NCBI RefSeq assembly: GCF_014644555.1
Contig: NZ_BMKX01000009.1
Span: forward strand, 1 to 49,260
Source of the DNA: Glutamicibacter ardleyensis
GTDB taxonomy: Bacteria; Actinomycetota; Actinomycetes; Actinomycetales; Micrococcaceae
DNA length: 49,260 nt
Direction: 5' to 3'
The notes under the pieces were generated by a model, which did not search any database, had not been told where the DNA came from, and worked only from the letters and a program-made list of their open reading frames with translations. Shown here piece after piece: positions 14,885 through 39,637 of this stretch. A program made the position numbers and the translations under genes. The stretch's first letter is position 1, and each line of letters begins with the position of its first letter.

Positions 14885-14911
14885 ATATCGGTTCAATTTG
14901 GGGTTCCGTTA
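14885..14911 (-). promoter_or_regulatory. Sigma-28-type promoter for flgN-flgK-flgL-fliW
   Basis: Read on the minus strand the site is TAAC, 15 nt, ACCGATAT. The known sigma-28 consensus is TAAA-N15-GCCGATAA. The predicted transcription start is about 14878, just before the flgN coding region. Spacing and sequence match five other sites in this locus. Confidence 0.75.
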
Positions 14912-15091
14912 GTTGAAGATCAAGGCATCTGTGCCTAAAACGCTATGCGTATGCTACTGGACGGTCAGTTAAGCGTTGTACTTTTGTTACATAAATTCGG
15001 CTAATTCACAGGATCTGGTCTGGTATCTTTATGGACGTTGTGCATTGATCGTTACCTTAAACACCTGGACCAACGGAGAAGCACACGCTCA

Positions 15092-15919
15092 GTGACAAGG
15101 AATTCTACGTTGGATCGATCCGCGCGCAACCAACTTGTGTTGGAAAATCTCCCGCTCGTTGGCTACCTGGTAGCCGACCTGTGCGCCAAGGCAACCCATC
15201 TTTCACGCGATGATATGGCCTCCGTGGGAGCTGTCGCCTTGATTACCGCCGCAGACTCTTTCGACAGCACGCTCGGTGTGCCGTTTGGTGCCTATGCCCG
15301 CCGTCGAATCGTGGGTGCATTCGCAGATGAGATGCGCTCGAATGACTGGGCCACTCGTGGTGCCCGCAAGCGCATCACCGAGACCAGGGCCATCCAAGAG
15401 ACGCTGACTGCGACACTGGGCCGGATACCGACAACCTCCGAAATATCTCAGGCACTCGGTGTCAGCATGGAGGAGACCCGGGCAATCCTCAGCGATGCGG
15501 CGCGCTCCGTGGTCACCATCGATGATGCAATGAATGACTACCTGGTTTCGAACACCAGCACCCCGGAAGATGCGGTGTTGGACTCGGAACGTACCAAGGT
15601 AGTCCGGCAAGCCGTTGCTGCCTTGCCGGAGAACCTGCGCACCATCATTGAACGCGTGTACTTTGATGGATCCACCGTCAAGGAAGTAGCTGCCGAAATG
15701 GGAGTGACCCATTCTGCCGTCTCGCAACGACGGACCGCTGCGATGAAGCTGCTGGGGGAGGGCTTGCAGAAGAACTATGTTCCGGAGCAACCAGAAATCC
15801 CGGTATCCGGACTCACCCGTGCTGCGGAGAAGCGGCGAGCCACCTATCTGCAGGACTTGTCCGAAGGATTGTCCGGCGTCACCCGCCGCATTCTTGACTC
15901 ACCCTCTAGCGCCTACTAA
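15092..15919 (+). CDS. fliA: Flagellar RNA polymerase sigma factor FliA (sigma-28/WhiG type)
   Basis: The roughly 275-residue group 3 sigma factor has region 2 near residues 15-85 (RNQLVLENLPLVGYLV and FGAYARRRIVGAFADEMR). Region 3 includes RIPTTSEISQALG. Region 4 ends in a helix-turn-helix (TVKEVAAEMGVTHSAVSQRR). The start is uncertain: GTG at 15092 has GGAGAA 11 bp before it, TTG at 15110 has AAGGA 8 bp before it, and an upstream TTG at 15038 has nothing. It stands alone between divergent flgN and fliC. It is the obvious candidate to read the TAAC-N15-RCCGATAK promoters here; no flgM anti-sigma gene is seen nearby. Confidence 0.93.
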   Translation: MTRNSTLDRSARNQLVLENLPLVGYLVADLCAKATHLSRDDMASVGAVALITAADSFDSTLGVPFGAYARRRIVGAFADEMRSNDWATRGARKRITETRAIQETLTATLGRIPTTSEISQALGVSMEETRAILSDAARSVVTIDDAMNDYLVSNTSTPEDAVLDSERTKVVRQAVAALPENLRTIIERVYFDGSTVKEVAAEMGVTHSAVSQRRTAAMKLLGEGLQKNYVPEQPEIPVSGLTRAAEKRRATYLQDLSEGLSGVTRRILDSPSSAY

Positions 15920-15938
15920 AAAATTTCCGCCGCGACGC

Positions 15939-15965
15939 TAACCGGTCAATTTGATCTGCCGATAG
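15939..15965 (+). promoter_or_regulatory. Sigma-28-type promoter of the flagellin gene
   Basis: TAAC (15939-15942), a 15-nt spacer, and GCCGATAG (15958-15965) match the sigma-28 consensus with one -35 change and one -10 change. The predicted transcription start is about 15972, so the message would begin at the base of the CGGA-loop hairpin. Confidence 0.85.
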
Positions 15966-15975
15966 TCGGTGTACG

Positions 15976-15993
15976 AGGTCCACGGATGGACCT
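15976..15993 (+). promoter_or_regulatory. CsrA-type hairpin in the fliC leader
   Basis: A perfect 7-bp stem, AGGTCCA and TGGACCT, closes a CGGA tetraloop. The helix can be extended outward through GTAC/GTAC (15971-15974 with 15996-15999). CsrA prefers GGA presented in a hairpin loop. The hairpin lies at the predicted 5' end of the flagellin mRNA, about 40 nt upstream of its start codon. Confidence 0.75.
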
Positions 15994-16014
15994 TTGTACG
16001 TACACACCCGTCTC

Positions 16015-16022
16015 ACGGAGGA
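16015..16022 (+). promoter_or_regulatory. fliC ribosome binding site overlapping a second CsrA-type motif
   Basis: ACGGAGGA is the Shine-Dalgarno of fliC, 7 bp before the ATG at 16030, and also fits the ANGGA core recognised by CsrA. Together with the upstream CGGA hairpin it reproduces the two-site layout known for the Bacillus hag leader, where CsrA blocks ribosome access. Confidence 0.65.
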
Positions 16023-16029
16023 AATCACC

Positions 16030-16899
16030 ATGGGTATGCAGATCAACACCAACCTTGCGGCTCTGAACGCTCACCGCAACCTGTCCAACACTCAGAACGA
16101 CCTGTCGAAGTCACTGGAGAAGCTCTCCTCGGGACTGCGCATCAACCGTGCAGCCGATGACGCTGCAGGTCTGTCCATCGCAGAAGGCCTGCGTTCACAG
16201 GTCAACGGCATGAACGTGGCCGCACGCAACGCGCAGGATGGTATCTCGGTCATCCAGACCGCAGAAGGCGCCCTGTCTGAGGTCCACTCGATCCTGCAAC
16301 GAGTTCGTGACCTGACCGTACAGGCAGGCAACGACTCGAACAATGCTGATTCCCGAACTGCAATCCAAACGGAAATTACTGCGCTGGGCGACGAACTTAG
16401 CCGTATTGCAACGTCAACGAACTTCAATGGGATCAGCCTTCTGGACCGAGCAGATACTGCAACTGGCACTTTGACTTTCCAGGTTGGCGCTGGATCAGTT
16501 GCTGCGGATGATCAGATCGGAATTGACCTCAGCGTTGCCAACGTTTCGACTGTAGCTGACGCTGTTCTCGCGATCGACGTTGAGCAAACGACTGCGACTG
16601 ACGATGCAACTGCCGCCACGGCTCGTCTGGCAACAATTGCTGCCGTAGACGCCGAGATCAAGAATATATCGACAGCACGTTCTGATCTTGGTGCAGTTCA
16701 AAACCGGTTCGAATCAACTATTAACACCCTGAACGTGACCCGCGAGAACCTGCAGTCAGCAGAGTCGCGTATCCGCGACGTTGATATGGCTGCCGAAATG
16801 GTGAACTTCACCCGTTCGAACATCCTGTCCCAGGCCGGTACCGCTATGCTCGCGCAGGCAAACCAGTCGAACCAGGGTGTTCTGCAGCTTCTTGGCTAA
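16030..16899 (+). CDS. fliC: Flagellin
   Basis: The 289-residue flagellin starts MGMQINTNLAALNAHRNLS and has the conserved N-terminal D0/D1 helices (LEKLSSGLRINRAADDAAGL). A short variable centre covers about residues 130-215. The C-terminal D1/D0 part contains NVTRENLQSAESRIRDVDMA and ends NQSNQGVLQLLG. It is compact: the outer D2/D3 domains of enteric flagellins are absent. The ATG at 16030 is set by the strong GGAGGAA site and the universal N-terminus; an upstream ATG at 15994 has neither. It has its own sigma-28-type promoter and a leader with CsrA-type sites. It is the only flagellin gene in the window. Confidence 0.96.
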   Translation: MGMQINTNLAALNAHRNLSNTQNDLSKSLEKLSSGLRINRAADDAAGLSIAEGLRSQVNGMNVAARNAQDGISVIQTAEGALSEVHSILQRVRDLTVQAGNDSNNADSRTAIQTEITALGDELSRIATSTNFNGISLLDRADTATGTLTFQVGAGSVAADDQIGIDLSVANVSTVADAVLAIDVEQTTATDDATAATARLATIAAVDAEIKNISTARSDLGAVQNRFESTINTLNVTRENLQSAESRIRDVDMAAEMVNFTRSNILSQAGTAMLAQANQSNQGVLQLLG

Positions 16900-16971
16900 G
16901 CGTCAAAGCTAAAGAGCACTTAGGGGTTTTCTGAACCACGACAGTGATTCTCAAAATTCCAAACCTCCAAC

Positions 16972-17025
16972 AATCTCCCGCGCCAGGTGCCGACTCGCAG
17001 AGTTCAGCCTCTGCCGCGGGAGATT
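16972..17025 (+). repeat. Nested inverted repeats in the fliC-fliD gap
   Basis: A perfect 11-bp inverted repeat, AATCTCCCGCG (16972-16982) and CGCGGGAGATT (17015-17025), encloses a second perfect 6-bp hairpin, GCAGAG/CTCTGC (16997-17002 with 17009-17014). No T-tract follows, so it is not a standard intrinsic terminator. It lies 36 bp before the fliD start and could limit readthrough from fliC or protect mRNA ends. No sigma-28-type promoter was found for fliD. Confidence 0.65.
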
Positions 17026-17061
17026 CGCGGTATCAACACAAAATTAGGAAGCGGAGAAATC

Positions 17062-18384
17062 ATGGGACTTTCCCTTGATGGGCTGGCCAGTGGTCTGGAT
17101 ACGACCACACTGATCAAATCCCTCATGCAAATTGAGGCGATTCCTCAAACGCTTCTGAAAAATAAAGTCAGTGCCACCAAAACCATGGTCTCTGCATTGC
17201 AAGCGCTCAATACTAAAGTCGCGGATCTCGCTACAGCATCTACCAAGCTTGCCAAGCCTGAATCTCTGCAATTATTCAAGACCACAGGCAGCTCAGAGGG
17301 CCTGACCGTCACAACTTCCACTGGCGCTACTGCCGGGTCCCTCGACCTGCGCGTTGACAAGCTGGCGCAAAGCCAGCTGCAAGTTACCGACCCCATCACC
17401 GCATGGGATTCCGCAAGTTTGACCATCACCACCGGTGGCACGTCAACGGCAATTACAGCTAGCTCAAACTCGCTGGACGACATCATCACCGCGGTCAACG
17501 CGTCGGAAACCGGTGTCAAGGCCGTCAAGGTTTCCGCCGGCCTGGATGCCAACGGCGTTGCACAATACCGCGTGCAATTCTCCGCTACTGATTCTGGAGC
17601 AGAGAACTCATTTACGATTGATGGCTCAGCGGTTCCGATGACTCAGATTCGGGCCGCGCAGGACGCCGAGGCCACGCTCTGGGCGGGGACAACGGCCGAG
17701 CAGAAAATTACCTCGTCCAGCAATACGTTTACCGCGCTGCTGCCCGGTGTGGACGTCACCGTTTCCAAGACCTCGACCGAGCCTGAGACCGTCTCGGTTC
17801 AACGCGACGAGGAGGCTACCTCCAAAGTTGCTTCCGATTTAGTCGGATCATTGAATGATCTGTTCAAATTCATTGACGTCAATTCTTCTGTTACCTCGGG
17901 TACCGGTGGTGCCACCAGCGGCATGATCTTCACCGGAGACAGCACGGCCCGCTCCGTCAAGCAACGAGTCATGGATGCGGCGATCATGCCGATCGATGGG
18001 AAGTCCCCCTCCGAAATCGGAATTTCAATCACCAAGGACGGAAAGGTTGAATTCGACGCGGAGAAATTCTCCAAGGCACTGGCCGAAGACCCCGCCCGAG
18101 TCGAATCGACGCTGCAAACCATCTCCTCGCGCGTCTCAACGGTCGCCACCGATATGTCAGACAAATACGATGGCGTGATTACCTCGCGCATCAAGGGACA
18201 AGAATCCACACTGTCACGCTTGGACGATCAGATCATGGATTGGGACCTGCGATTGGATAAGCGCGAAGCGACGCTCAAACGTATCTACTCGGCTCTCGAA
18301 GTCCAGATGAGCAACATGAATGCCCAATCTTCATATCTTGCCTCGCAACTTGCCTCGCTCCCAACAACACAGAAGAAGTCATGA
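17062..18384 (+). CDS. fliD: Flagellar filament cap protein FliD
   Basis: The 440-residue FliD (HAP2) begins MGLSLDGLASGLDTTTLIKS, the typical N-terminus. The C-terminal region contains FDAEKFSKALAEDPARVES and a final helix rich in SYLASQLASL. FliD caps the filament and folds incoming flagellin. The ATG at 17062 has a GGAG site 5 bp upstream; the longer frame from 16987 would run through the inverted repeat and is not supported. It overlaps fliS by 4 bp. It probably depends on readthrough from the fliC promoter. Confidence 0.93.
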   Translation: MGLSLDGLASGLDTTTLIKSLMQIEAIPQTLLKNKVSATKTMVSALQALNTKVADLATASTKLAKPESLQLFKTTGSSEGLTVTTSTGATAGSLDLRVDKLAQSQLQVTDPITAWDSASLTITTGGTSTAITASSNSLDDIITAVNASETGVKAVKVSAGLDANGVAQYRVQFSATDSGAENSFTIDGSAVPMTQIRAAQDAEATLWAGTTAEQKITSSSNTFTALLPGVDVTVSKTSTEPETVSVQRDEEATSKVASDLVGSLNDLFKFIDVNSSVTSGTGGATSGMIFTGDSTARSVKQRVMDAAIMPIDGKSPSEIGISITKDGKVEFDAEKFSKALAEDPARVESTLQTISSRVSTVATDMSDKYDGVITSRIKGQESTLSRLDDQIMDWDLRLDKREATLKRIYSALEVQMSNMNAQSSYLASQLASLPTTQKKS

Positions 18385-18791
18385 TGAATCCCGCGTTGAA
18401 ACGTGCACAGCTCAATCGTGAAGCAATTCTCTCGGCAAGCCCCGCACGTCTGTTGACCATGCTCTATGACCGTCTACTGGTGGACCTGAACCGTGCCGAA
18501 TCCGCACAGCTCACTGGCGATTTTGCGGTTGCTTCGGAGAACCTGGTTCATGCACAGGCAATCATCGCCGAACTTGCGTCCAGCTTGAATACAGATGTCT
18601 GGTCCGGGGCGAAAGAGCTTCAAGGGATCTACACGTTCGTCACCCAACTGCTTATCGACGCGAATATCAAGCGCAACCCGGATCTCACGCGGCAGGCTAT
18701 CGTGCTGATGGCACCTCTGCGGCAGACCTGGCATGATGCTGCGGCCGCGCCAACAACTGCGTCCACCACCGGTGGCGAATTCCTTGCCTGA
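18381..18791 (+). CDS. fliS: Flagellin export chaperone FliS
   Basis: The 136-residue helical protein shows the FliS motif ASPARLLTMLYDRLLVDLNRA near its start and a following helix NLVHAQAIIAELASSLNT. FliS binds the C-terminus of flagellin and prevents early polymerisation. It is translationally coupled to fliD through an ATGA overlap and is followed by an overlapping small gene. Confidence 0.92.
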   Translation: MMNPALKRAQLNREAILSASPARLLTMLYDRLLVDLNRAESAQLTGDFAVASENLVHAQAIIAELASSLNTDVWSGAKELQGIYTFVTQLLIDANIKRNPDLTRQAIVLMAPLRQTWHDAAAAPTTASTTGGEFLA

Positions 18792-19113
18792 GTTGCCTGA
18801 CGCTTTGTCACAGGAAGAAGCTTGGGGGGCATTCTTGGATGGTCTTGCCACGGAGTTGAGCCAGCTTCGTGCAGCAGCGTCCCATGAAAGCCAATTACTG
18901 GATCTTTCCGCAGATCCATGGGCACCGCCGGCGAACCTCGGCGACATGCCGGTGGCGTTTGAAGCCCAAGCGAGAAAACTGCTCAACGACATCGCGCAGT
19001 TGCAGCCTGTTCTGGCCCAGCAGCGGGACGCAACGGCCAAACAGCTTCGACTCGTCGATGCGGTTCCCCGCGATGGGGCGGAGACCGCAATTTATTTGGA
19101 TTCCGCCGGATAG
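18772..19113 (+). CDS. Small helical protein in the FliT position of the flagellar operon
   Basis: A protein of about 113 residues with no recognised domain. It begins overlapping the end of fliS: GTG at 18772 is one option, TTG at 18784 another, and the frame is open to 18733. The sequence (EEAWGAFLDGLATELSQLRA and KLLNDIAQLQPVLAQQRDA) suggests two or three long helices, as expected for a type III export chaperone. In many bacteria fliT follows fliS, so this may be a divergent FliT-like chaperone. That is inference from position and helix content only. Confidence 0.6.
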   Translation: MANSLPELPDALSQEEAWGAFLDGLATELSQLRAAASHESQLLDLSADPWAPPANLGDMPVAFEAQARKLLNDIAQLQPVLAQQRDATAKQLRLVDAVPRDGAETAIYLDSAG

Positions 19114-19123
19114 CAAATTCAGC

Positions 19124-19150
19124 TAACGCAGCTGACAGATGTGCCGATTG
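19124..19150 (+). promoter_or_regulatory. Sigma-28-type promoter of the flgB operon
   Basis: TAAC (19124-19127), a 15-nt spacer and GCCGATTG (19143-19150) match the fliC promoter except at one -10 base. The predicted start is about 19157, directly before two CGGA-loop hairpins. This would place rod, MS-ring and export genes under FliA, unlike the enteric hierarchy. Confidence 0.72.
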
Positions 19151-19157
19151 TCTAGAT

Positions 19158-19198
19158 AGAGCACGGATTGCTCTTTTCCTTGATGCCCACGGATGGGC
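19158..19198 (+). promoter_or_regulatory. Two tandem CGGA-loop hairpins in the flgB leader
   Basis: The first hairpin is AGAGCA/TGCTCT (19158-19163 with 19169-19174) with loop CGGAT. The second is GCCCA/TGGGC (19185-19189 with 19194-19198) with loop CGGA. Both present GGA in the loop, as CsrA prefers, and the second shares the CCA-CGGA-TGG core with the fliC hairpin. They start at the predicted 5' end of the flgB transcript. Confidence 0.6.
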
Positions 19199-19228
19199 TA
19201 CAGCAAAAACATTATGGAGTCATTCCTC

Positions 19229-19570
19229 GTGTTCGAATCCGTCACCTCTTTGGCCATGAACAGTGCCTTGGATGGTTTGGCGTTGCGCCAGCGCGCCATC
19301 GCCAATAACATCGCCAACGTCAACACACCCGGATATCAGGCCCGCCGCGTGGAATTCGAGAATGCGCTCGCCAAGTCCGTGGCAGACGGCGGCGGACAAG
19401 TTGACGCCCAAACACAGAATTCCACAGCGCCCACGCGCCTAGACGGCTCAAACGTCAACCTCGATACGGAAACTCTGTCCAATATCGATACGGTGCTGCG
19501 CTATCAATTCGCCACCCAGTCAGCCTCGGGACCCTTCAACTCGATGCGCACAGCCTTGCGGAGCAACTAA
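19229..19570 (+). CDS. flgB: Flagellar basal-body rod protein FlgB
   Basis: The 113-residue rod protein has the axial-protein motif RQRAIANNIANVNTPGYQAR. I choose GTG at 19229 because it has GGAG 9 bp upstream and gives MFESVTSLA, matching the usual FlgB start. The ATG codons at 19193 and 19214 lack ribosome sites, and the first lies within a leader hairpin. FlgB forms the proximal rod with FlgC and FliE. It is the first gene of the long, tightly packed basal-body and export operon, and its stop overlaps the flgC start by one base. Confidence 0.92.
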   Translation: MFESVTSLAMNSALDGLALRQRAIANNIANVNTPGYQARRVEFENALAKSVADGGGQVDAQTQNSTAPTRLDGSNVNLDTETLSNIDTVLRYQFATQSASGPFNSMRTALRSN

Positions 19571-19962
19571 TGTTTGATGCAATTTCCATCGCGGGCAGCG
19601 GACTGAGCGTTCACCGCCAATGGCTTGACTCGGTCTCGGATAACCTCGCCAACGCCAACAACGTCACCTCCACCGATGAGAACGCCTTCCAAGCACGTTA
19701 CGTCGTAGCCCAAGCCGGAGAAGGCAATTCGGGTGTGCGTGCAACCGGCATTGAATTTGGCGACCCGGAAGGGCGGGTAGTCCACCAGCCGGATCACCCG
19801 TTAGCGGATGAGGAAGGCTATGTCCGCTACCCGGATATCGACATGTCCGAGCAAATGGGAAACCTGGTAATGGCTCAGCGCGGATACCAGGTGAATGCCG
19901 CGGTGGTTGACCGCGCCAAAGAAACTTATCAAGCTGCTTTGCAGATTGGACGTAACCAGTAA
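19570..19962 (+). CDS. flgC: Flagellar basal-body rod protein FlgC
   Basis: The 130-residue proximal rod protein has the N-terminal motif SVSDNLANANNVTSTDENAF and the C-terminal YPDIDMSEQMGNLVMAQRGY, both characteristic of FlgC. It overlaps flgB and fliE by one base each, a spacing that implies translational coupling. With FlgB and FliE it connects the MS ring to the rod. Confidence 0.94.
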   Translation: MFDAISIAGSGLSVHRQWLDSVSDNLANANNVTSTDENAFQARYVVAQAGEGNSGVRATGIEFGDPEGRVVHQPDHPLADEEGYVRYPDIDMSEQMGNLVMAQRGYQVNAAVVDRAKETYQAALQIGRNQ

Positions 19963-20270
19963 TGGCCTTTGAAATCTCCGGGATCTCCGGTGTAAGCCCT
20001 ACCCAAGCTACCGGCTACCTGAAGCCTTCGGAATCGGTTGGCACCGACGGCTCGGTATTCGCCGAGAAACTTGGCGGAGCGGTCAATGAGGTCCAGAGCC
20101 TGCAGGGAACCTCCAATGACCTCGCCATCAAGGCAGTGACTGGAGAACTGACCGACATCCACGAGGCAACTCTGGCCTCCACGCGTGCCTCGGTGGCGCT
20201 GGAAATGGCAGCCACCTTCCGTAACCGCGGCGTGGAAGCCTTCAACGAGATCATGAGGATGCAGGCCTAG
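19962..20270 (+). CDS. fliE: Flagellar hook-basal body protein FliE
   Basis: The 102-residue protein has the FliE C-terminal pattern EATLASTRASVALEMAATFR followed by a helix ending EIMRMQA. FliE is the adaptor between the MS ring and the rod. It sits between flgC and fliF with one-base overlaps, the usual order flgB-flgC-fliE-fliF-fliG. Confidence 0.93.
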   Translation: MAFEISGISGVSPTQATGYLKPSESVGTDGSVFAEKLGGAVNEVQSLQGTSNDLAIKAVTGELTDIHEATLASTRASVALEMAATFRNRGVEAFNEIMRMQA

Positions 20271-21865
20271 TGGCATCACTTCCCACCCCGCTGGCAAATG
20301 CCATGTCCGCGATCCGCGGCTTTACCCTTGCCCAGAAGACCATTGCAATTATCGGCATAGCCGTACTGGCTTTGGGAACCATGGCATTGGTGACCTTCAT
20401 GAACCAGCCTAAAATGACTCCATTGTTCTCGGGTGTTTCGGCGACTGATGCCTCTGCCATTGTTGAGCAGTTGAAATCTGATTCGATTCCCTATGAACTC
20501 ACCGGCGGGGGAGGGACCATTCTGGTACCCGAAGCCAACGTCTATGATTCACGGCTCAAAGCTGCCGCGGCAGGATTGCCGGGCGCCTCAACCAGTGGAT
20601 ATTCGTTGCTGGACGATATGGGAGTGACCTCCAGTGAATTCCAACAGTCGGTCACGTACAAGCGGGCTTTGGAAGGAGAACTGGCCTCCACGATTCAGGG
20701 AATGGATGGCATTGTTGCGGCCTCGGTGAAGCTCGCCATTCCGGAAGATACCGTGTTCGTTGATTCAAAAACCGAGCCTACCGCGTCAATCTTCGTGGAA
20801 ACCCAGCCGAATGTCTCACTTGACCCCGCCCAGGTCAAAGCCATTGTCCATCTGACTTCTGCAGCCGTGGATGGATTATCTGCCGATAATATCTCCGTGG
20901 TTGATTCCACCGGAAAGCTGCTCTCCGCTGCCGGTGTGGGCTTGAACGGCGGAACAGACAAGCAAGCAACCGACTATGAAACCCGAGTTGCAGGCGTTGT
21001 CCAGTCAATGCTTGACCGCGTGGTGGGTCCGGGAAATGCCACGGTAGCGGTAGCCGCTGACGTCGGCCTGGAATCGGCTAACCGCGTCGAGGAGTCCTTC
21101 ACCAATCCAGACGGCAACCCGGTGCTGACCGAATCCAGCAAGGAAGAGGAATACGAAGGCAGTGGGGCCGGTGCTGGTGCAGGCGTTCTAGGTTCCAACG
21201 AGGAAGGCGCCGATAACGCCCGCGAAGGCACCTTCTCCTCCAGCGACACCAACAAGACCAATGCAATCAACAAGGTCACAGAGACTCGCGAAATTCCTGC
21301 TGGAATTCTGAATCGCCAAAGCGTCTCGGTGGCCATTGACCAGGCCGCCGCAGGTGGCTTGGATATTGACGAGGTTACAGCTCTGGTCAGCGCCGCAGCG
21401 GGCATTGAAACCACCCGGAACGACACAGTGAATGTTTCAGTGGTTCCGTTCAATACCGATGCTGCAGCCGAAGCCCAAGCCGCACTGACTGAAGCCAACG
21501 ATGCGGCGGCAGCCGCCCGCCAGGCGGATTTGATGCGCAACCTGATGATCGCCGGTGTCATTGCCTTGGCTCTGATTCTTTTCACCGGCTATGCAGTCTA
21601 CGCGCGGCGTCATAAGCAGAAACGCGAATTGGTGAACCTGGGCGAATTGCGGGAGATGACTCCTATTGAGCCCGTCGCCGCGGCGCCCTTGATGCATTCG
21701 GATACCGTGGCGCTCGCCCAGGTGCCGGCATTGGCTCAATCGATGCCAGCCGTGGAACAGTCCAGAACCGCCAAGCGGGAGGAACTCTCCGCCTTGGCTG
21801 CCAGCGAGCCAGCCAAGATGGCGGACTATTTGCGTACCGTGATGGATGAGAAGGAAAACGCATGA
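20270..21865 (+). CDS. fliF: Flagellar MS-ring protein FliF
   Basis: The 531-residue MS-ring protein has one membrane segment near residues 22-42 and a second near 424-444. Between them lie the ring-building domains (MTPLFSGVSATDASAIVEQL and GVTSSEFQQSVTYKRALEGE). The short cytoplasmic tail after the second span ends in a helix (ALAASEPAKMADYLRTVM) that would bind FliG. The GTG start overlaps the fliE stop by one base. It overlaps fliG by 4 bp. Confidence 0.94.
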   Translation: MASLPTPLANAMSAIRGFTLAQKTIAIIGIAVLALGTMALVTFMNQPKMTPLFSGVSATDASAIVEQLKSDSIPYELTGGGGTILVPEANVYDSRLKAAAAGLPGASTSGYSLLDDMGVTSSEFQQSVTYKRALEGELASTIQGMDGIVAASVKLAIPEDTVFVDSKTEPTASIFVETQPNVSLDPAQVKAIVHLTSAAVDGLSADNISVVDSTGKLLSAAGVGLNGGTDKQATDYETRVAGVVQSMLDRVVGPGNATVAVAADVGLESANRVEESFTNPDGNPVLTESSKEEEYEGSGAGAGAGVLGSNEEGADNAREGTFSSSDTNKTNAINKVTETREIPAGILNRQSVSVAIDQAAAGGLDIDEVTALVSAAAGIETTRNDTVNVSVVPFNTDAAAEAQAALTEANDAAAAARQADLMRNLMIAGVIALALILFTGYAVYARRHKQKRELVNLGELREMTPIEPVAAAPLMHSDTVALAQVPALAQSMPAVEQSRTAKREELSALAASEPAKMADYLRTVMDEKENA

Positions 21866-27780: not shown

Positions 27781-27793
27781 GGAAGGAAGAACC

Positions 27794-28261: not shown

Positions 28262-28325
28262 GTTAGCCACGAACACCAACTAGAGCACATCCCCGAGCAA
28301 TTCTCCTTACATAGAAAGTCTTAAA

Positions 28326-29498: not shown

Positions 29499-29511
29499 CC
29501 GCGCGGCTCTG

Positions 29512-29547
29512 GGCAGGAACGCAGCTAACGCGTAGCGCGTTCCTGCC
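29512..29547 (+). repeat. 11-bp inverted repeat after flgE that contains the flbD promoter
   Basis: GGCAGGAACGC (29512-29522) and GCGTTCCTGCC (29537-29547) are perfect complements around a 14-nt loop. The TAAC of the flbD promoter lies in the loop and the -10 begins within the right arm. In transcripts arriving from flgE the repeat would fold as a strong hairpin without a T-tract. Confidence 0.65.
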
Positions 29548-29552
29548 GAGAG
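29526..29552 (+). promoter_or_regulatory. Sigma-28-type promoter of flbD-motA-motB
   Basis: TAAC (29526-29529), a 15-nt spacer and GCCGAGAG (29545-29552) differ from the fliC promoter by one base. The predicted start is about 29559, giving a leader of about 14 nt with the AAAGGA site before the GTG of flbD. Confidence 0.65.
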
Positions 29553-29572
29553 TTGGCAGGTGAAAGGACTGG

Positions 29573-29791
29573 GTGGACTTGATCGTTTTAACCAGACTGA
29601 ACAACACCCGCGTAGCGGTCAATGCAGACTTGATCGAGCGGATACAGCAGAACCCGGACACCGTAGTCATCATGGCCAACGGTGCCAAATACGTGGTGCG
29701 CGAAACCATGGAAGACATCGTTTCCCTGTGCGCCGGCTACCGGGCACGAGTCATCTCCTTGGCTCGACTGCACGACCGCGCCACACACTAA
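29573..29791 (+). CDS. flbD: FlbD-family flagellar protein
   Basis: The 72-residue protein matches the FlbD/SwrD family: MDLIVLTRLNNTRVAVNADL at the start, then IERIQQNPDTVVIMANGAKY and a short C-terminal helix. In Bacillus the homologue SwrD increases swarming motor power and is encoded next to motor genes. The GTG start has AAGGA 4 bp upstream. It is first in a unit with motA and motB. Confidence 0.88.
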   Translation: MDLIVLTRLNNTRVAVNADLIERIQQNPDTVVIMANGAKYVVRETMEDIVSLCAGYRARVISLARLHDRATH

Positions 29792-29819
29792 CCGCCAGCA
29801 GCTTCGACGAAGGACTTCC

Positions 29820-31441: not shown

Positions 31442-31491
31442 TCTTTTATCCCACTTGTTGGTGCGTTGCGCGAAGAATTTGCGCACTTGGC

Positions 31492-31518
31492 TAACCAGCA
31501 CGGTTTTTGTGCCGATAG
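31492..31518 (+). promoter_or_regulatory. Sigma-28-type promoter of the fliM operon
   Basis: TAAC (31492-31495), a 15-nt spacer and GCCGATAG (31511-31518) are identical to the fliC promoter in both boxes. The predicted start is about 31525, two bases before the GTG at 31527, which suggests a leaderless fliM message. It also means the reading frame upstream of 31527 is promoter, not coding sequence. Confidence 0.8.
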
Positions 31519-31526
31519 TGCGGTTC

Positions 31527-32450
31527 GTGACTTCTATGCCCGCGGGCGTTGCCGGATCCGGCGGCTCGCTATTCTCCTCTGCCAAGGCCTCCAAAGCAGT
31601 AGTCTATGATTTCCGCCGTCCCACCAATTTGCGCCGCGAACATGCCCGGGTGCTGGAGATGGCCTTCGAGACCTTTGCCCGTCAATGGGGAACCCAGCTG
31701 ACGGCAAAACTCAGGGTGCTGTCCCAAGCAACCCTCGAATCGGTGTCCATGCTCAGCTACGACGACTATGTGGCCGAACTTCCCGCGCAAACCACCATGG
31801 TGCTCTGCGAAGTCGAGGGCCGCGAGGCCCGTACCGTCATCCAGTTCCCTGCGGCCGAGGCACTGAATTGGGTAGCTCACATGCTGGGCAGCAGCACCGA
31901 TATCGACGCGCCCGAACGTCCCTTCACGCGTATCGAGCAGACTCTCGTGCGGGCACTGATGGTTGAGGCCCTGGAAGATCTGCGCTATTCGCTGGGTTCC
32001 TTGCTGCACCGCGAAATATCGGTGCTCTCGCTGAGCCACCAGCCGCAGTTCGCCCAGGCGGCCCCGAAGTCCGAGATCATGATTGTGGTCAAGCTCCAGA
32101 TCCGGGTGGGGGAGCACCGGGTTGCATCATCCGTTGCGCTTCCGGCAGATCTGCTGCTGCCCCAACTGGGAGACGCGAACCCGCGCACCCCGGTGGAGGA
32201 AGCCGCTGGACTGCTGAGCCAATCGGTGGCCACGGTCCCGGTGGAAGTCGCACTGAGCGTCAAGTCCGCCACGGTCAAACCCCAAGACATCCTGAATCTG
32301 GCTGTGGGAGACGTGCTCCCGCTGGGGCATCGAGTACACAAGCCATTTGAACTTTCCATAGAAGGCCGCCGGCTGGGTACCGCCGCGGCTGGAACCCGTG
32401 GCGGCCGGATTGCCGCAGTCATCGTTTCGACCGAGGAGAATTCGCTATGA
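31527..32450 (+). CDS. fliM: Flagellar motor switch protein FliM
   Basis: The roughly 307-residue C-ring protein has the FliM middle domain (VYDFRRPTNLRREHARVLEM and FARQWGTQLTAKLRVLSQ). Its C-terminal SpoA/FliN-like domain includes QDILNLAVGDVLPLGHRV. I place the start at GTG 31527, or possibly ATG 31536, because a sigma-28-type promoter occupies the sequence before it; the frame remains open to 31455 but without a ribosome site. The usual N-terminal EIDAL peptide that binds phosphorylated CheY is absent in every upstream frame. It overlaps fliN by 4 bp. Confidence 0.9.
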   Translation: MTSMPAGVAGSGGSLFSSAKASKAVVYDFRRPTNLRREHARVLEMAFETFARQWGTQLTAKLRVLSQATLESVSMLSYDDYVAELPAQTTMVLCEVEGREARTVIQFPAAEALNWVAHMLGSSTDIDAPERPFTRIEQTLVRALMVEALEDLRYSLGSLLHREISVLSLSHQPQFAQAAPKSEIMIVVKLQIRVGEHRVASSVALPADLLLPQLGDANPRTPVEEAAGLLSQSVATVPVEVALSVKSATVKPQDILNLAVGDVLPLGHRVHKPFELSIEGRRLGTAAAGTRGGRIAAVIVSTEENSL

Positions 32451-33196: not shown

Positions 33197-33198
33197 CC

Positions 33199-33657: not shown

Positions 33658-34490
33658 TGCAGCTTCACAAGAGAACAATCGCAATTTCCCGTTCGCTGTG
33701 GCTTCGCCGCACGCTGCTGCTCGGAGCCATCCTGGCCGTGCTGCTGCTGTGGCAGCTGGCCGCGGCTATTCCGAGTTTTGCAGTACCGGTGGCACCGAAC
33801 CCCACCGATGGCAACGGCGGACTTTCCGTAGAAATTAATGGCCCGAACGGCACTCCGAGCTCCGCCATCGTCACGTTGATTGCGATCGCGCTGCTTTCGG
33901 TTGCCCCGGCTCTACTGCTGATGATGACCTCCTTCACCAAGATCTTCGTGGTGCTGGCCTTCACCCGCAATGCCTTGGCGCTGCCAACCATTCCGCCGAA
34001 CCAGGTGCTTGCAGGGCTGGCGCTGTTCCTTTCACTGTTCATCATGGCCCCGGTGCTCAGCTCCATGAACGAGATCGGGGTGCAGCCCTATCTGGATGGC
34101 AGCATCGACTTGCCCAAGGCGCTGGAAGTCGGCGTGGTGCCGTTGCGCGAATTCATGCTCGGCCAGACGCGCGAGGCGGATATCGCATTGATGACCAGGG
34201 CAGCGAACCTGCCAAACCCGGGTTCCCCCGATGATGTCGCGCTGACCACGCTCATACCGGCTTTCATGATTTCCGAGCTGCGAGCAGCATTTATTATCGG
34301 CTTTGTCATTTTTGTTCCCTTCCTCATTATCGACCTGGTGGTGTCCTCGGCGCTGATGTCCATGGGCATGATGATGCTGCCACCGGTGATGATTTCCTTG
34401 CCCTTCAAGATCCTGCTCTTTGTGCTGGTTGACGGCTGGGGCCTGATCATCACCTCGCTGATCGGTTCCTATCAAGGCGGGGGCGGCTAA
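33657..34490 (+). CDS. fliP: Flagellar export gate protein FliP
   Basis: The 277-residue membrane protein has a cleavable-looking signal segment (LLGAILAVLLLWQLAAAIPS). Core spans follow, with the conserved MMTSFTKIFVVLAFTRNALA and the C-terminal MSMGMMMLPPVMISLPFKIL. FliP, FliQ and FliR form the export pore in the MS ring centre. The ATG overlaps the fliO stop by one base. Confidence 0.95.
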   Translation: MQLHKRTIAISRSLWLRRTLLLGAILAVLLLWQLAAAIPSFAVPVAPNPTDGNGGLSVEINGPNGTPSSAIVTLIAIALLSVAPALLLMMTSFTKIFVVLAFTRNALALPTIPPNQVLAGLALFLSLFIMAPVLSSMNEIGVQPYLDGSIDLPKALEVGVVPLREFMLGQTREADIALMTRAANLPNPGSPDDVALTTLIPAFMISELRAAFIIGFVIFVPFLIIDLVVSSALMSMGMMMLPPVMISLPFKILLFVLVDGWGLIITSLIGSYQGGGG

Positions 34491-34492
34491 CC

Positions 34493-34768
34493 ATGGACTC
34501 CAACGCCGTATTGGACATTGGCATGTCAGGATTGCTGATCGCAGCAAAACTTTCGGCACCGGTGCTGATCACCTCGCTGGTGGTGGGCTTCGCCATTTCC
34601 CTATTCCAGTCAATGACTCAGATTCAAGAAATCACCTTGTCCTTCGTGCCCAAGGCCGTAGCTGTGGCCATTGCACTGCTGGTCTGCGGGCACTGGATGA
34701 TTTCGGAAATCGTCGCGTTCACCCACGAGCTGTTCGACAAGATTCCCGGACTGCTGGGAGGCGGATAG
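34493..34768 (+). CDS. fliQ: Flagellar export gate protein FliQ
   Basis: The 91-residue protein has two membrane hairpin helices (LLIAAKLSAPVLITSLVVGF and AVAVAIALLVCGHWMISEIV) joined by FQSMTQIQEITLSFVPK, the FliQ signature. It lies two bases after fliP and one base before fliR. Confidence 0.94.
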   Translation: MDSNAVLDIGMSGLLIAAKLSAPVLITSLVVGFAISLFQSMTQIQEITLSFVPKAVAVAIALLVCGHWMISEIVAFTHELFDKIPGLLGGG

Positions 34769-34769
34769 T

Positions 34770-35531
34770 TTGCTGGCCACGCTGCCGCTGCAGTTCCTGG
34801 AAGTCCTGATGCTTGCCGCAGTGCGGGTGACAGCATTCCTGGTGATCGCCCCGCCGTTCTCGCATAATGCCATTCCGCTGCGCATCAAAGCGATGCTCGG
34901 GGTCTGCCTGGCGTTGGCCGTGACCCCGCGGCTCAACGAGCGCTACACCTCGCTGGGCACCGGTGACTACATGGCGGCACTCGTGGCAGAACTGCTGGCC
35001 GGCGCGGCCATGGGCTTTATGGTCATGCTTGTTTTTGCTGCCATTCAATCAGCAGGCGGCCTGATTGACTACTTCGGCGGTTTCGCTATGGCGCAGGGCT
35101 TCGATCCGCAATCCATGGTCAACGGCGCGCAGTTTGCCCGTTTCTTCCATTTTGCAGCCCTCGCGTTGCTGGTGGCTTCGGACGGATATCAGCTGGTGCT
35201 GGCCGGCTTGTTCCGCTCATTTGATGCGATCTCCCTGGGTGCCGGGATCGCGTTGGGTTCCAGCGCGCAATCGCTGAGCGCGGCGCTTGGCCAGATGTTT
35301 CTCTCAGCCGTGCAGATTGCCGGTCCGTTGCTGGTGGTGCTGATGCTGGCCGATATCGGCTTGGGACTGCTGACCCGCGCCGCCCCGGCGTTGAATGCCT
35401 TTGCCATGGGGTTCCCCTTGAAGATCTTCATTACCCTGATGCTTGCCAGCTCGGTGTTTGTGGTGCTTCCCGCGGTAGTTTCGGCACTGGTGCGCGAAGC
35501 GCTGACCTTGTTCCCGGGAGCCGGATCATGA
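34770..35531 (+). CDS. fliR: Flagellar export gate protein FliR
   Basis: The 253-residue protein has about six membrane segments and the family stretch VTAFLVIAPPFSHNAIPLRI. The central GLIDYFGGFAMAQGFDP and C-terminal APALNAFAMGFPLKIFITLM segments also match. The start is TTG at 34770, one base after the fliQ stop. It completes the FliPQR gate. It overlaps flhB by 4 bp. Confidence 0.94.
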   Translation: MLATLPLQFLEVLMLAAVRVTAFLVIAPPFSHNAIPLRIKAMLGVCLALAVTPRLNERYTSLGTGDYMAALVAELLAGAAMGFMVMLVFAAIQSAGGLIDYFGGFAMAQGFDPQSMVNGAQFARFFHFAALALLVASDGYQLVLAGLFRSFDAISLGAGIALGSSAQSLSAALGQMFLSAVQIAGPLLVVLMLADIGLGLLTRAAPALNAFAMGFPLKIFITLMLASSVFVVLPAVVSALVREALTLFPGAGS

Positions 35532-36649
35532 GCCAGGATTCGGGCGAGCGCAGCGAAAAGGCCACCGCCCAGCGCATGAAGGAGGTCCACTCCAAAGGCA
35601 AGATGACCCGTTCGCAGGATCTTGCCGCTTGGCTGGGCATCGGTGCCGCGGCGGTCATGCTTCCCGGGGTGATTACCCGGGGCCGGGAGGCGGCGAGCGA
35701 ATCGCTGTATTTGCTGGATGGGATCGCGTTGGATCCGCAGCCCGGAACTCTGATCACGGTGCTCGGTGATGGCATGTCCACCTTGGGATTCATCCTGGGG
35801 CCGTTGTTTGCCGTGGTACTGGTGGTGGTCGTGGCCACCGCCGCGATCCAGGGAGGCATCCGCTTCCGCACGTTCAAACTGGATCCGGCAAACCTGAACT
35901 TGCTCACCGGTGTGCAGCGGGTCTTCGGCTTTCAGGCGCTCTGGCAGGGAATCAAGGCCTTGCTCAAGGTCGTGGTGATCGGGCTGGTGCTGTGGTTCGT
36001 CATTGCTTCGTTGATGCCGTTGCTGCTCCAGTCTGGTTCCTTGCCGTTGTCCTCATTGCTCTCTGCAAGTTCCGAGGGGACCGCGTCGTTGATTCGCGCC
36101 TCGGTGATTGCAGGTCTGGTATTGGCCGCGGCAGATGTCTTCATGGTGCAGCGGCGCAACCGGAAACACACACGCATGACCCGCAAGGAAGTCACCGATG
36201 AGAACAAGCGCAGCGAGGGTGACCCGTTGATCAAATCCCAGCGCCGGGCCCGGGCCATGGATATGAGCCGGAACCGGATGATCGCCGCGGTGGCTGACGC
36301 GGACGTGGTGATCATCAACCCCACGCATGTGGCCGTCGCACTGCGCTATCAGCGCGGTGTTGCCGCGCCGAAGGTCGTGGCCAGGGGAGCTGACCACGTG
36401 GCGACCCGCATCCGCGAGGAAGCCGCCGACAAGAAAGTGCCCATGGTGCGTGACATCCCCTTAGCCAGATCCTTGCACAGCGAATGCCAGCTGGGCGATG
36501 AAATCCCCGTCGAATGCTACAACGACGTGGCCAGAGTGCTGGCTTTCGTGATGTCGCTGAAAGCCCGGGGTGCGTCCACCGGCGTGCATGCCTCCCCGAA
36601 TCCGCGGTCCAGTACCGCAGCGCGTGACCATGGAAGGAACCAGTCATGA
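35528..36649 (+). CDS. flhB: Flagellar export switch protein FlhB
   Basis: The 373-residue protein has an N-terminal ERSEKATAQRMKEVHSKGKM stretch, four membrane spans and a cytoplasmic domain. The autocleavage site NPTH is at residues 264-267 (VVIINPTHVAV); cleavage between Asn and Pro allows the switch from hook to filament export with FliK. A basic C-terminal tail of about 25 residues follows the conserved part. It overlaps fliR and flhA by 4 bp. Confidence 0.95.
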   Translation: MSQDSGERSEKATAQRMKEVHSKGKMTRSQDLAAWLGIGAAAVMLPGVITRGREAASESLYLLDGIALDPQPGTLITVLGDGMSTLGFILGPLFAVVLVVVVATAAIQGGIRFRTFKLDPANLNLLTGVQRVFGFQALWQGIKALLKVVVIGLVLWFVIASLMPLLLQSGSLPLSSLLSASSEGTASLIRASVIAGLVLAAADVFMVQRRNRKHTRMTRKEVTDENKRSEGDPLIKSQRRARAMDMSRNRMIAAVADADVVIINPTHVAVALRYQRGVAAPKVVARGADHVATRIREEAADKKVPMVRDIPLARSLHSECQLGDEIPVECYNDVARVLAFVMSLKARGASTGVHASPNPRSSTAARDHGRNQS

Positions 36650-38700
36650 ACTTCTCTGCACTGCCCAAAATTGCTGTGCCGCTCGGTGTAGTGGGCATCA
36701 TCATGCTGCTGGTGGTTCCGGTCCCGGCAGCATTGCTTGATTTCCTGTTCACCGTGAGCATCCTGCTGGCGCTGGTGATCTTGCTGATCACCATGTTTGC
36801 CAAGCGGCCGCTGGATTTCTCGGTCTTTCCGTCACTGCTGCTGGTGGCTACCTTGCTGCGGCTGGGGCTGAACGTCGCCTCGACCCGTCTGGTCCTCGGC
36901 CAGGGCTACGCCGGCGAGGTGATTGCGGCCTTCGGAAATATTGCGGTGAGCGGTTCACTGATCATCGGCTTTGTGATCTTCTTGATCCTGGTGGTTATTC
37001 AATTTGTGGTGGTCACCAAGGGTGCCGAGCGTGTGGCCGAGGTGGGTGCGCGATTCACCCTCGACGCCATGCCGGGCAAGCAGATGGCCATTGATGCGGA
37101 TCTGAACGCCGGTTTGATCACCGACGCGCAGGCCCGCGAACGACGCGCAGACGTTGCCGCGGAAGCCGACTTCTACGGGGCGATGGACGGTGCCTCGAAG
37201 TTCGTCAAGGGTGACGCCATCGCCGGGCTGATTATCATCATCATCAACCTGGTGGGCGGCATTGGGATCGGGATGATCTCCCAGGGCATGTCCATCGGCG
37301 ATGCCATGAACACCTATGCGCTGCTGACTATCGGCGACGGACTGGCCACGCAGATTCCGGCATTGCTCATGGCGGTGGCTACCGGCATGATCGTCACGCG
37401 CTCAAACGCGTCGGAAGACATGGGGTCCAAAGCCTCCGCGCAGCTGACGCAGTCGCGTTCGGCATTGCAAATTGCCGGGGCCGGAGCTATTGCGCTGGCG
37501 CTGGTACCCGGTATGCCGAAATTGCCCTTTGTACTTATCGGCGCGCTGCTGATCTTCACCGCGGCGCGGATCAAGGTGGCGCGTACCCGGGCGGATCAGC
37601 AGTTGGAGGTGGCCAAGGCGAATGAGGCCGCGTCTGCCGCGAAGGAAACCCCGGAAGACCTGATGGAAAAAATGCGGGTGCATGCCTTGGAAATCCAGCT
37701 GTCCGCGGACCTGGTGGACCTGGTCAATGGTGGGGGAGATGACCTGTTGGCCCGAGTGCGCGCCCTGCGCCGCCGAGTGGCCATGGACTTAGGGCTGGTG
37801 CTGCCTCCGGTGCGTACCCGCGACAGCGTGGACCTGCCTCCTGCCACCTATGCCATCAAGGTTGCCGGGGTCGAGGCTGGCCGCGGCACCGCTCCGCGCG
37901 GCAAGATCTTGGCCCTAGGCGACCACTTGGAGACGCTGCCCGGAGAACAAGTGATGGAGCCGGTATTTGGTCTTGCAGGCAAATGGGTCCCAGCTGAGTT
38001 GCGGCATAATGCCGAGATGACCGGGGCCACCACCATTGACCGGGTATCGGTGATCGTCACGCACCTTTCATCCATCGTCCAGGCCCAGGCTGCCCGGCTG
38101 CTCACCAGGGAGGACGTCCGTCTGCTGACAGATTCCGTGCGCGAACTAAACCCCTCGGCAGTTGAGGAACTTACTCCCGCGCTCATTTCGCTGGCCGAGG
38201 TCCAGCGCGTGCTGCAGGGGCTGCTCGCCGAGCAGGTGCCGATCAACGACTTGGCGAGAATTTATGAGGCTCTGGCGCTGCGCGCGAAAACCGGTACCGA
38301 ACCCGAAGGGCTGATCGAGGCGGCACGTGCCGCGCTCGGACCAGCCATCGTGGCCAAATATCTGGAGGGGCAATTGCTGCGTGTGGTGATGATTGATCCG
38401 CTGTTGGAGCAGACCATGCTTGAAGGCATGCGCCCCTCGGAAAACGGCACCCAGATCATGCTTGATGCGCAGCGGTTGGAAAAGGTGCTCGAGTCGGTGA
38501 AGAACATTGCAAATGATCTGGAACGGCGCGGGTTGTCTGCGGTGCTGGTGTGCGCTCCGGCGCTGCGCCCGGCGGTGCACAAGTTGCTGGGATCTGGAGC
38601 GTCTGCCATACCGGTGCTCTCATATCAAGAGGCCACCGCGGGTGGGGCCACCATCGAGACCGTAGGAGTGGTGCGCAGTGCCGACGCAATATCAGCTTAA
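36646..38700 (+). CDS. flhA: Flagellar export protein FlhA
   Basis: The 684-residue protein has about eight membrane spans in the first 310 residues. The FHIPEP-type loop includes RVAEVGARFTLDAMPGKQMA and ADLNAGLITDAQARERRADV. The large C-terminal cytoplasmic domain docks export chaperones. It is the usual length for the family. Its end overlaps the next gene by 23 bp, the usual position of flhF. Confidence 0.95.
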   Translation: MNFSALPKIAVPLGVVGIIMLLVVPVPAALLDFLFTVSILLALVILLITMFAKRPLDFSVFPSLLLVATLLRLGLNVASTRLVLGQGYAGEVIAAFGNIAVSGSLIIGFVIFLILVVIQFVVVTKGAERVAEVGARFTLDAMPGKQMAIDADLNAGLITDAQARERRADVAAEADFYGAMDGASKFVKGDAIAGLIIIIINLVGGIGIGMISQGMSIGDAMNTYALLTIGDGLATQIPALLMAVATGMIVTRSNASEDMGSKASAQLTQSRSALQIAGAGAIALALVPGMPKLPFVLIGALLIFTAARIKVARTRADQQLEVAKANEAASAAKETPEDLMEKMRVHALEIQLSADLVDLVNGGGDDLLARVRALRRRVAMDLGLVLPPVRTRDSVDLPPATYAIKVAGVEAGRGTAPRGKILALGDHLETLPGEQVMEPVFGLAGKWVPAELRHNAEMTGATTIDRVSVIVTHLSSIVQAQAARLLTREDVRLLTDSVRELNPSAVEELTPALISLAEVQRVLQGLLAEQVPINDLARIYEALALRAKTGTEPEGLIEAARAALGPAIVAKYLEGQLLRVVMIDPLLEQTMLEGMRPSENGTQIMLDAQRLEKVLESVKNIANDLERRGLSAVLVCAPALRPAVHKLLGSGASAIPVLSYQEATAGGATIETVGVVRSADAISA

Positions 38701-39613
38701 TGGGTCCAGCCTGCAACAAATCCAGCAGCAGGCGACAGAACTATATGGTGAGAATGCCCAGATTATGAAAGCCGAAAAAGTGCGCACCGGCGGAATCATC
38801 GGGTTCTTTTCCAAGGAGCATTTTGAGGCAGTGATCCAGATACCAGAAACTGGAAAACGAGAACCTAAGGCGGAGGAACCATCAGCCGGACGGTCTCTGC
38901 ATCAGCTGCTGGAACGTGCCGACAAAGAAGAACAAGGCATGGCCAGCACCCAGGCTATGGATCCTGTATCGAGGCAAAGCTCCGCCGAGCAATCCAGCGC
39001 GAGTTTCGGCAAAGAACTTGAGGCGCAGGTAATTGCGCTGGATCCGGACGCCAGCCAGCATGCCGGACTCGTGGGCGCCGAGGAGGAAATCGAGGCGGAA
39101 CTCGCACGCGAAAACGCCCATTTTCGTGACCGCGTACGCGTTTTGCCGCCTGCCGCTGTCGGCGGCCAGCAGGTTCTGGTTATTGGCTTGGGCCGTGACG
39201 CGCTGGATGCGTCGGCTGTCCTTGATGACGGATCTGCTCTTCGCCGCAATGCGGGGGAACTGGCTCAGCTCATCGATCCGAACCCGGTCTCGCGCAAACC
39301 CTTGAGTGACAGGCAAGGGACATTGCGCGCCCGCGCCGCCGCGGTAGAGCAGCAGCGCACCTTGCTGGTCTCTCTCTCGTTGACTTTTGCACAACCTCTG
39401 GACGCCCAGTTGCAGCTGATCTCGCAGCTGCAACCAGACCAGCTATGGGTGTCGGTGGACGTTTCGCGCAAGGCCGAGGACACCGCACAATGGGTGTCCC
39501 AAGTTGTGGCGGCGCACCCCGTCTCCGCTGTGCTCGCGTTGAACGCAGAACTGACGTCCTCGGCCCAATCGGTCACCGAGCTGGGTTACCCGGTGCGCTG
39601 GGCCGGGCACTAA
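38678..39613 (+). CDS. FlhF-like protein lacking a P-loop GTPase signature
   Basis: This 311-residue protein occupies the flhF position. Residues 12-60 (QIQQQATELYGENAQIMKAE then VRTGGIIGFFSKEHFEAVI) match the N-terminal B-domain pattern of FlhF, including the GGxxGFFxKE motif. The rest should be an SRP-type GTPase domain, but no GxxGxGKTT P-loop, DTAGR or TKxD motif is present. Only a tail resembling the end of such a domain remains (QPDQLWVSVDVSRKAEDTAQ and VTELGYPVRWAGH). It is intact and in frame, so it looks like a maintained non-GTPase derivative. Start GTG at 38678 overlaps flhA. Confidence 0.75.
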   Translation: MPTQYQLNGSSLQQIQQQATELYGENAQIMKAEKVRTGGIIGFFSKEHFEAVIQIPETGKREPKAEEPSAGRSLHQLLERADKEEQGMASTQAMDPVSRQSSAEQSSASFGKELEAQVIALDPDASQHAGLVGAEEEIEAELARENAHFRDRVRVLPPAAVGGQQVLVIGLGRDALDASAVLDDGSALRRNAGELAQLIDPNPVSRKPLSDRQGTLRARAAAVEQQRTLLVSLSLTFAQPLDAQLQLISQLQPDQLWVSVDVSRKAEDTAQWVSQVVAAHPVSAVLALNAELTSSAQSVTELGYPVRWAGH

Positions 39614-39637
39614 CCTCGAGCCGTGGGACACCGGTAT
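39611..39637 (+). promoter_or_regulatory. Sigma-28-type promoter of csrA
   Basis: TAAC (39611-39614, partly the stop codon of the preceding gene), a 15-nt spacer and ACCGGTAT (39630-39637) match the flgN promoter with one changed base. The predicted start is about 39644, three bases before the csrA GTG, so the message may be leaderless. No Shine-Dalgarno is present. Confidence 0.6.

Follow-up and report, generated by a model that had tools for sequence, protein, structure and literature searches.

The first 49,260 nucleotides of contig NZ_BMKX01000009.1 of Glutamicibacter ardleyensis (the window; the start of one contig, C9, in the 3.94 Mb genome G000) carry a flagellar gene cluster, in which we found five conserved FliA-type (sigma-28) promoter sites before early and late genes alike and conserved GGA hairpins in the leaders of the fliC and flgB mRNAs. 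In the explanation that we consider probable, FliA would recognise CTAAC-N15-GCCGATAG and transcribe the cluster from these five promoters, and, instead of by FlgM, the order of assembly would be governed, at least in part, at the level of the mRNA. CsrA would bind the fliC leader at one GGA-loop hairpin and at the Shine-Dalgarno sequence, in the layout of repression, and the flgB leader at two GGA-loop hairpins at its 5′ end. FliW, freed upon flagellin export, would remove CsrA, and a leaderless fliM mRNA would escape this control. We infer FliA promoter use from sequence and conservation, and the CsrA-FliW step from csrA, fliW, the hairpins and the systems of Bacillus and Campylobacter.

Five conserved FliA-type promoter sites

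An earlier note on the window had reported six sigma-28 promoters, and at each of the six places TAAC is indeed followed, after exactly 15 nt, by a −10-like box. Five of them we keep as putative FliA promoters: CTAAC-N15-ACCGATAT of flgN (14885..14912, minus strand; by gene order also for flgK-flgL-fliW), CTAAC-N15-GCCGATAG of fliC (15938..15965, plus strand), CTAAC-N15-GCCGATTG of flgB (19123..19150, plus), CTAAC-N15-GCCGAGAG of flbD and motA-motB (29525..29552, plus) and CTAAC-N15-GCCGATAG of fliM (31491..31518, plus; by gene order also for fliN-O-P-Q-R-flhB-flhA). The sixth, before csrA (39610..39637, plus), has the box ACCGGTAT. The pattern given for all six, TAAC-N15-RCCGATAK, is matched literally at fliC, fliM and flgN but not at flgB, flbD and csrA. 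That the plus strand holds no further site was borne out by a scan of the window for TAAN-N10..19-NCCGAT, which gave none. The −10 boxes of the five sites differ from GCCGATAA by one to three letters and are conserved, and the spacer is 15 nt in the window sites and 16 nt in some orthologs.

We scored the window with a matrix, which prepends a C to TAAC, made from 48 orthologous sites of 12 relatives, 11 sharing the family of the window and one, G083, its order, with the window excluded. The matrix sites were chosen as the best TAAC/GCCGATA matches; therefore, the scores test the letters of the window, and the shape of the motif is not independent. The fliC (25.4 bits), fliM (25.1 bits), flbD (23.9 bits) and flgB (18.6 bits) sites are the top four places of the window; in 12 simulated windows, the highest score ranged from 6.6 to 12.75 bits. 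By score, the flgN site (12.4 bits) is at the edge of chance; a minus-strand place at 39182, inside orf311, reached 13.5 bits. The csrA site scored 5.3 bits, rank 14 in the window and under the best of every simulated window, and is not conserved in relatives, and we rejected it as a promoter.

Among the 12 relatives, the site is kept before fliC and flgN in 12/12, flgB in 11/12, motA in 9/9 and fliM in 8/9, where motA orthologs stand for flbD-motAB and G046 lacks the flgB and fliM sites. The upstreams of fliD, fliF, fliI, flgK, fliA and csrA in the same relatives matched just 6 to 9 of 11 letters. In the set enlarged by named loci, sites matching 10 or more of 13 letters were found before 65 of 67 fliC, 60 of 61 flgB, 30 of 31 fliM and 10 of 10 motA orthologs, and before 66 of 90 flgN orthologs. 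All 52 named loci with fliC near have the flgN site, as does 1 of the 25 without fliC near fliA, indicating that where the arrangement is split, the site was lost from, or never arose at, the flgN homolog next to fliA. Genomes and the 80 named loci overlap (G003=L108, G066=L103, G034=L107, G044=L117, G048=L125, G035=L166); thus, rows of the leader-hairpin and −35 counts are not all independent. In the enteric scheme, FliA promoters serve solely late genes. Here, as the earlier note had proposed, such sites also stand before the early genes flgB and fliM, for which FliA dependence is predicted, in addition to the late genes fliC and flgN, and they are conserved.

A lineage-specific −35 element

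We also counted −35 elements with the −10 box as the only anchor (flgN rows of loci without fliC omitted), and found CTAAC 149 times, CTTAC 58 times, other types 16 times and no −10 box 15 times; 8 of the 16 others are TAAC with a 16-nt spacer. The TAAA of sigma-28 is absent from the types seen in close lineages in this count. The claim that the −35 is TAAC and not TAAA therefore holds in close lineages, with CTTAC beside CTAAC, but not at the fliM upstream of G093, from another family, which fits TAAA with 16 nt. TAAC is the norm of the lineage: relatives from the Micrococcaceae and the Microbacteriaceae have CTAAC or CTTAC-N15-GCCGATAG.

Six genomes representing four further families of the order mostly have CTCAG or CTCAC as the −35 at those upstreams with a −10 box; several upstreams showed no box. 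The FliA recognition helix reads TESRVSQ, TESRISQ or TRSRISQ in the other families, in contrast to THSAVSQ, the form in the window, or close variants in the CTWAC genomes. The sites display a lineage-specific −35 element alongside changes in the recognition helix of the sigma factor. We regard a tie between the −35 letters and the helix, a correlation over few families, as a lead only.

Hairpins in the fliC and flgB leaders

The fliC leader contains a CsrA-type hairpin with GGA in the loop (15977..15992, plus strand; GGTCC-ACGGAT-GGACC), followed by TCACGGAGGAAA at the Shine-Dalgarno sequence, which a second GGA overlaps (16013..16025, plus; TCACGGAGGAAAT) in the leader alignment. The flgB leader has two such hairpins in tandem, hairpin 1 at 19158..19174 (plus; AGAGCACGGATTGCTCT) and hairpin 2 at 19185..19198 (plus; GCCC-ACGGAT-GGGC; GCCCACGGATGGGC). 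CsrA sites usually have GGA in the loop of a hairpin, frequently with a further GGA at the Shine-Dalgarno sequence (PMC4894983; this paper, PMC2587704 and PMC10746217 are cited from excerpts throughout); fliC has both, and flgB has two loop sites. Hairpin 1 was flagged as terminator-like in the window, a candidate that we rejected: most aligned relatives have no T run.

At least two GGA hairpins are present in 59 of 60 flgB leaders (0.07% in shuffles), and at least one in 58 of 65 fliC leaders (3.3%); of the seven fliC leaders scored as hairpin-less, six retain the hairpin with one mismatch and L150 with two. The flgN and fliM leaders are at 7 of 66 (shuffles 5.9%) and 0 of 30 (6.3%). We aligned 44 of 47 distinct flgB leaders and 44 of 44 distinct fliC leaders, with the G genomes other than the window excluded. 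In the fliC stem, 89.5% of cells pair versus 70.7% when shuffled, and 63 cells changed on both sides versus 23.2. The fliC stem thus covaries, which suggests that compensatory change maintains the hairpin.

The likely fliM start codon is a GTG at 31527..31529 (plus strand), 8 nt past the −10 box, a distance that is exact in all 26 strict-pattern orthologs of the 31 examined. The fliM mRNA is therefore probably leaderless and would lie outside CsrA control.

Both partners of the proposed control are encoded in the cluster: csrA (39647..39904, plus strand), an RNA-binding regulator by Pfam that also matches solved CsrA chains and has a tail extending past the Pfam domain, and fliW (11669..12043, minus strand; Pfam FliW), the expected CsrA antagonist. 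L4 and R44, which we take to be RNA-contacting residues, are retained by the window CsrA in alignments with the solved chains; one of the matched entries, 5dmb, is presumably a FliW complex.

The flgB hairpins begin a median of 8 nt (8 to 17) past the −10 box, at the extreme 5′ end and upstream of the Shine-Dalgarno sequence. This position, away from the ribosome site, differs from that in fliC, where the hairpin is joined by a GGA that overlaps the Shine-Dalgarno sequence, and it suggests a second reading: CsrA may activate the flgB operon by shielding the 5′ end of its mRNA, as in E. coli flhDC (a precedent quoted in PMC2587704), and repress fliC. CsrA, however, repressed the flaG, flgI and flaB leaders of Campylobacter when these were placed in an E. 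coli reporter (PMC4894983), and we hold activation of flgB to be possible but somewhat doubtful. The same source reports that a csrA deletion in C. jejuni little changed the protein levels of FlaG, FlgI and FlaB.

Control of fliA and absence of FlgM

The gene fliA (15092..15919, plus strand) was identified by Pfam sigma-70 regions 2, 3 and 4 on a longer open reading frame (ORF; 15038-15919); its likely start is the GTG at 15092, as most of the stronger matches of relatives begin at query residues 14-25 of the longer ORF. Neither in the window nor in 12 relatives does its upstream show a FliA site above background, and we rejected a FliA site at fliA. Words shared before fliA gave no clear regulator site, some merely reflecting the divergent flgN promoter, and a scan for a sigma-70-type site there counted no more than shuffles.

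The earlier note had also suggested that FliA is the master activator, starting the entire cascade by itself. Five gene heads with conserved FliA sites are what such a master would leave, and among the named cluster genes we noticed no other flagellar master, a genome-wide search not having been made. Since fliA has no FliA site of its own, though, it would not be self-activating and would depend on another input; something else must start it. We therefore think the master role unlikely. FliA looks like a shared activator of the cluster, not a self-starting master.

The absence of flgM, also claimed before, was confirmed: no Pfam FlgM match at 0.001 was obtained anywhere in the genome, in a search that was positive in 3 of 14 control genomes, including E. 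coli and B. subtilis. This absence is less new than claimed, as it is already in print that flagellated Actinobacteria of later classes are without FlgM (PMC10746217). In its excerpt, the Kineococcus genome paper likewise finds no flgM and leaves the timing of FliA activity open (PMC2587704). The conserved leaders offer a testable answer to the timing of assembly without FlgM: CsrA-FliW would shift control away from the sigma factor and onto the mRNA, and early and late genes would have one promoter type in common.

Distribution of the flgB leader element and of CsrA

We built a covariance model (R1) from 44 flgB leaders; its only match at 0.01 in the window genome is the flgB leader, a match by construction, as are those in G003, G034 and G044, whose leaders were in the training set. 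Among the 22 best places in 34 genomes (2e-7 or better), 21 lie before flgB and one other is in G097. Four of the 21 belong to genomes without flgB near fliA and are preceded by CTAAC-N15 or 16-CCGATAG. The weaker matches appear to be chance hits; some fall in congeners that lack a strong FliA match (best 1.4e-5, G004). The second strong match in G097 (L246 ~1501-1563, G097:C21) is not beside flgB and has an nlpC homolog near.

In a class-wide search of 296 genomes with stricter filters, R1 matched 43 genomes at 1e-4 (FliM or CsrA in 19) and 17 at 1e-6 (FliM or CsrA in 15); a match at 1e-4 occurs in 18 of the 33 FliM genomes. When 17 new loci were read for context, 12 lay before flgB, and these reach a family with genomes of 7.6 to 8.8 Mb, also with CsrA. 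In other families of the class, too, the leader element thus stands before flgB. CsrA itself is found in 32 of the 33 FliM genomes. Over all 296 genomes it occurs in 37, making it a nearly flagellum-linked gene in this class.

This distribution bears on a further reading, in which only the FliA promoters are real controls and the leader hairpins stabilise 5′ ends or serve an RNA-binding protein other than CsrA. Such roles would suit the flgB hairpins, placed at the very 5′ end upstream of the Shine-Dalgarno sequence, as CsrA binding is a prediction; R1 is moreover missing in 15 of the 33 FliM genomes, nearly all of which have CsrA. But the loop GGA stays constant while the fliC stem changes and flgB hairpin 2 varies across families, and the CsrA of the class mostly accompanies FliM (32 of 37). 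We consider hairpins unrelated to CsrA quite improbable.

Several observations weigh against the explanation by FliA promoters and CsrA-FliW. As to the RNA, two weaker measures of fliC covariation are reached by shuffles, the pairs changed on both sides in 26 of 500 and the pair types in 74 of 500. The flgB stems are nearly invariant in close families, so covariation is uninformative there. Across families, hairpin 2 is GGCC/GGCC, GCCC/GGGC or CGCC/GGCG, and its two varying positions pair in 32 and 31 of 33 loci before flgB versus shuffle maxima of 28 and 26. This pairing speaks for the explanation, but the test took the longest stem and so favours pairing, and its background (~18% of ANGGA sites with a stem of at least 4) includes the elements themselves. 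Repression of a simple kind is not evident for flgB, whose hairpins precede the ribosome site. GGA hairpins in 3 of 10 motA leaders, a small set (shuffles 5.0%), suggest that they may not be limited to fliC and flgB. As to distribution, the flagellated G046 has no R1 match, the absence of R1 at 1e-4 from the 15 FliM genomes counts here as well, and 24 of the 43 genomes matched at 1e-4 hold neither FliM nor CsrA. Additional sigma-A promoters may also exist.

Genome-wide motif scans

A genome-wide motif scan, proposed in the earlier note as a check on the regulon, gave 10 matches to CTAAC-N15-RCCGATAG with at most one mismatch in the window genome, five in the cluster and five elsewhere. Each of the five outside lies within an ORF, and we rejected them as further sites; the regulon of this genome appears confined to the cluster. 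The backwards control gave 13 matches. With one mismatch the motif is no commoner than its control, so that clustering and conservation carry the weight. The exact form CTWAC-N15-RCCGATAG matched 35 times in 12 flagellated genomes (26 in flagellar clusters and 9 elsewhere, by place) and once in 12 congeners without a strong FliA match; its backwards control matched 4 times across all 24 genomes.

That chance alone produced the six motifs, in a region rich in GC, as the 10 against 13 matches and the chance-level score of the csrA site would allow, is scarcely credible in view of the scores and positional conservation of the other five.

Two of the nine exact CTWAC matches outside flagellar clusters, both CTAAC-N15-GCCGATAG, precede a GGDEF gene in G041 and G068, which belong to one genus (L193 and L203, 1501-3028).

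The gene cluster and its relatives

Leftward, the genes run fliW-flgL-flgK-flgN; rightward, they run fliA-fliC-fliD-fliS-orf126-flgB-flgC-fliE-fliF-fliG-fliH-fliI-fliJ-nlpC-fliK-flgD-flgE-flbD-motA-motB-fliM-fliN-fliO-fliP-fliQ-fliR-flhB-flhA-orf311-csrA. Operons are read from this order. The names are backed by Pfam except for orf126 and orf311, which have no family; flgL, flgB, flgC, fliI and fliN were named through general Pfam domains and position, and fliJ is below its own Pfam cut-off. flgB (19229..19570, plus strand; likely start GTG 19229) has the Pfam rod protein domain, flbD (29573..29791, plus) is FlbD by Pfam, and flgN, also by Pfam, probably starts at GTG 14829 on the minus strand. 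Relatives have homologs of orf311 (38678-39613, flanked by flhA and csrA) in the corresponding position, but it has no Pfam family at 0.001.

The window genome has its flagellar cluster without a recognisable chemotaxis system: neither MCP (PF00015) nor CheW had a match in the genome, control genomes being positive in each search. Flagellated species without chemosensory systems are in print (PMC10746217).

A strong FliA match was found in just 2 of 18 same-genus genomes (the window genome and G003), suggesting that the cluster is probably patchy within the genus. Close named relatives include Cryobacterium (Microbacteriaceae). In some genomes fliA stands apart from the flgB cluster (L220, L224, L225 and L236, and similar loci such as L120). 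Many such split loci have fliA beside csrA, orf311 and flhA, the sigma recognition helix HAAVSQ and a flgN homolog mostly without a FliA site. We rejected the view that fliA-csrA-flhA loci without fliC are degenerate clusters, since in four genomes the flgB leader, with promoter and hairpins, sits elsewhere: far away or on another contig in G047, G061 and G035, and ~23 kb off on the same contig in G032.

Comparison with known systems

Sigma-28 promoters and CsrA leaders are known kinds of elements. What may be new, and we say so tentatively, is that a conserved RNA element of two GGA hairpins, not in Rfam, would place the rod, MS-ring and export operon (flgB) under the CsrA-FliW secretion sensor of flagellin across flagellated Actinobacteria, so that the assembly order would, without FlgM, be set post-transcriptionally, early and late genes being transcribed together by one sigma factor. 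Rfam gave nothing at gathering score in the window and nothing meaningful at the flgB leader, and in the excerpts of open-licence literature consulted we found no mention of CsrA hairpins at actinobacterial flgB.

The sites share with the sigma-28 promoters of FliA, SigD and WhiG the −10 GCCGATA, the 15-nt spacing and a FliA-family sigma factor beside the genes. They differ in the −35, CTAAC or CTTAC instead of the consensus TAAA (PMC8325347), and in serving early as well as late genes.

The same kind of control, flagella genes under a flagellar-type sigma factor, was described for an actinobacterium in a 2016 study, whose accessible part mentions no mRNA hairpin layer. Its motif is reportedly of the CTCA type, with a −35 differing from that of the window.

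At the flagellin gene, the window resembles B. subtilis hag and Kineococcus, where a CsrA site was proposed by comparison with hag, in the GGA at the Shine-Dalgarno sequence and in having csrA in the flagellar cluster (PMC2587704); the two tandem GGA hairpins in the leader of the rod gene flgB are an addition here. In C. jejuni, CsrA-FliW acts beyond flagellin, and CsrA binds further flagellar leaders, including those of the basal-body genes flgI and flgH, as it is predicted to do here at flgB. In that species, however, the enrichment of flgB was minimal (1.6-fold), and flgM is present (PMC4894983).

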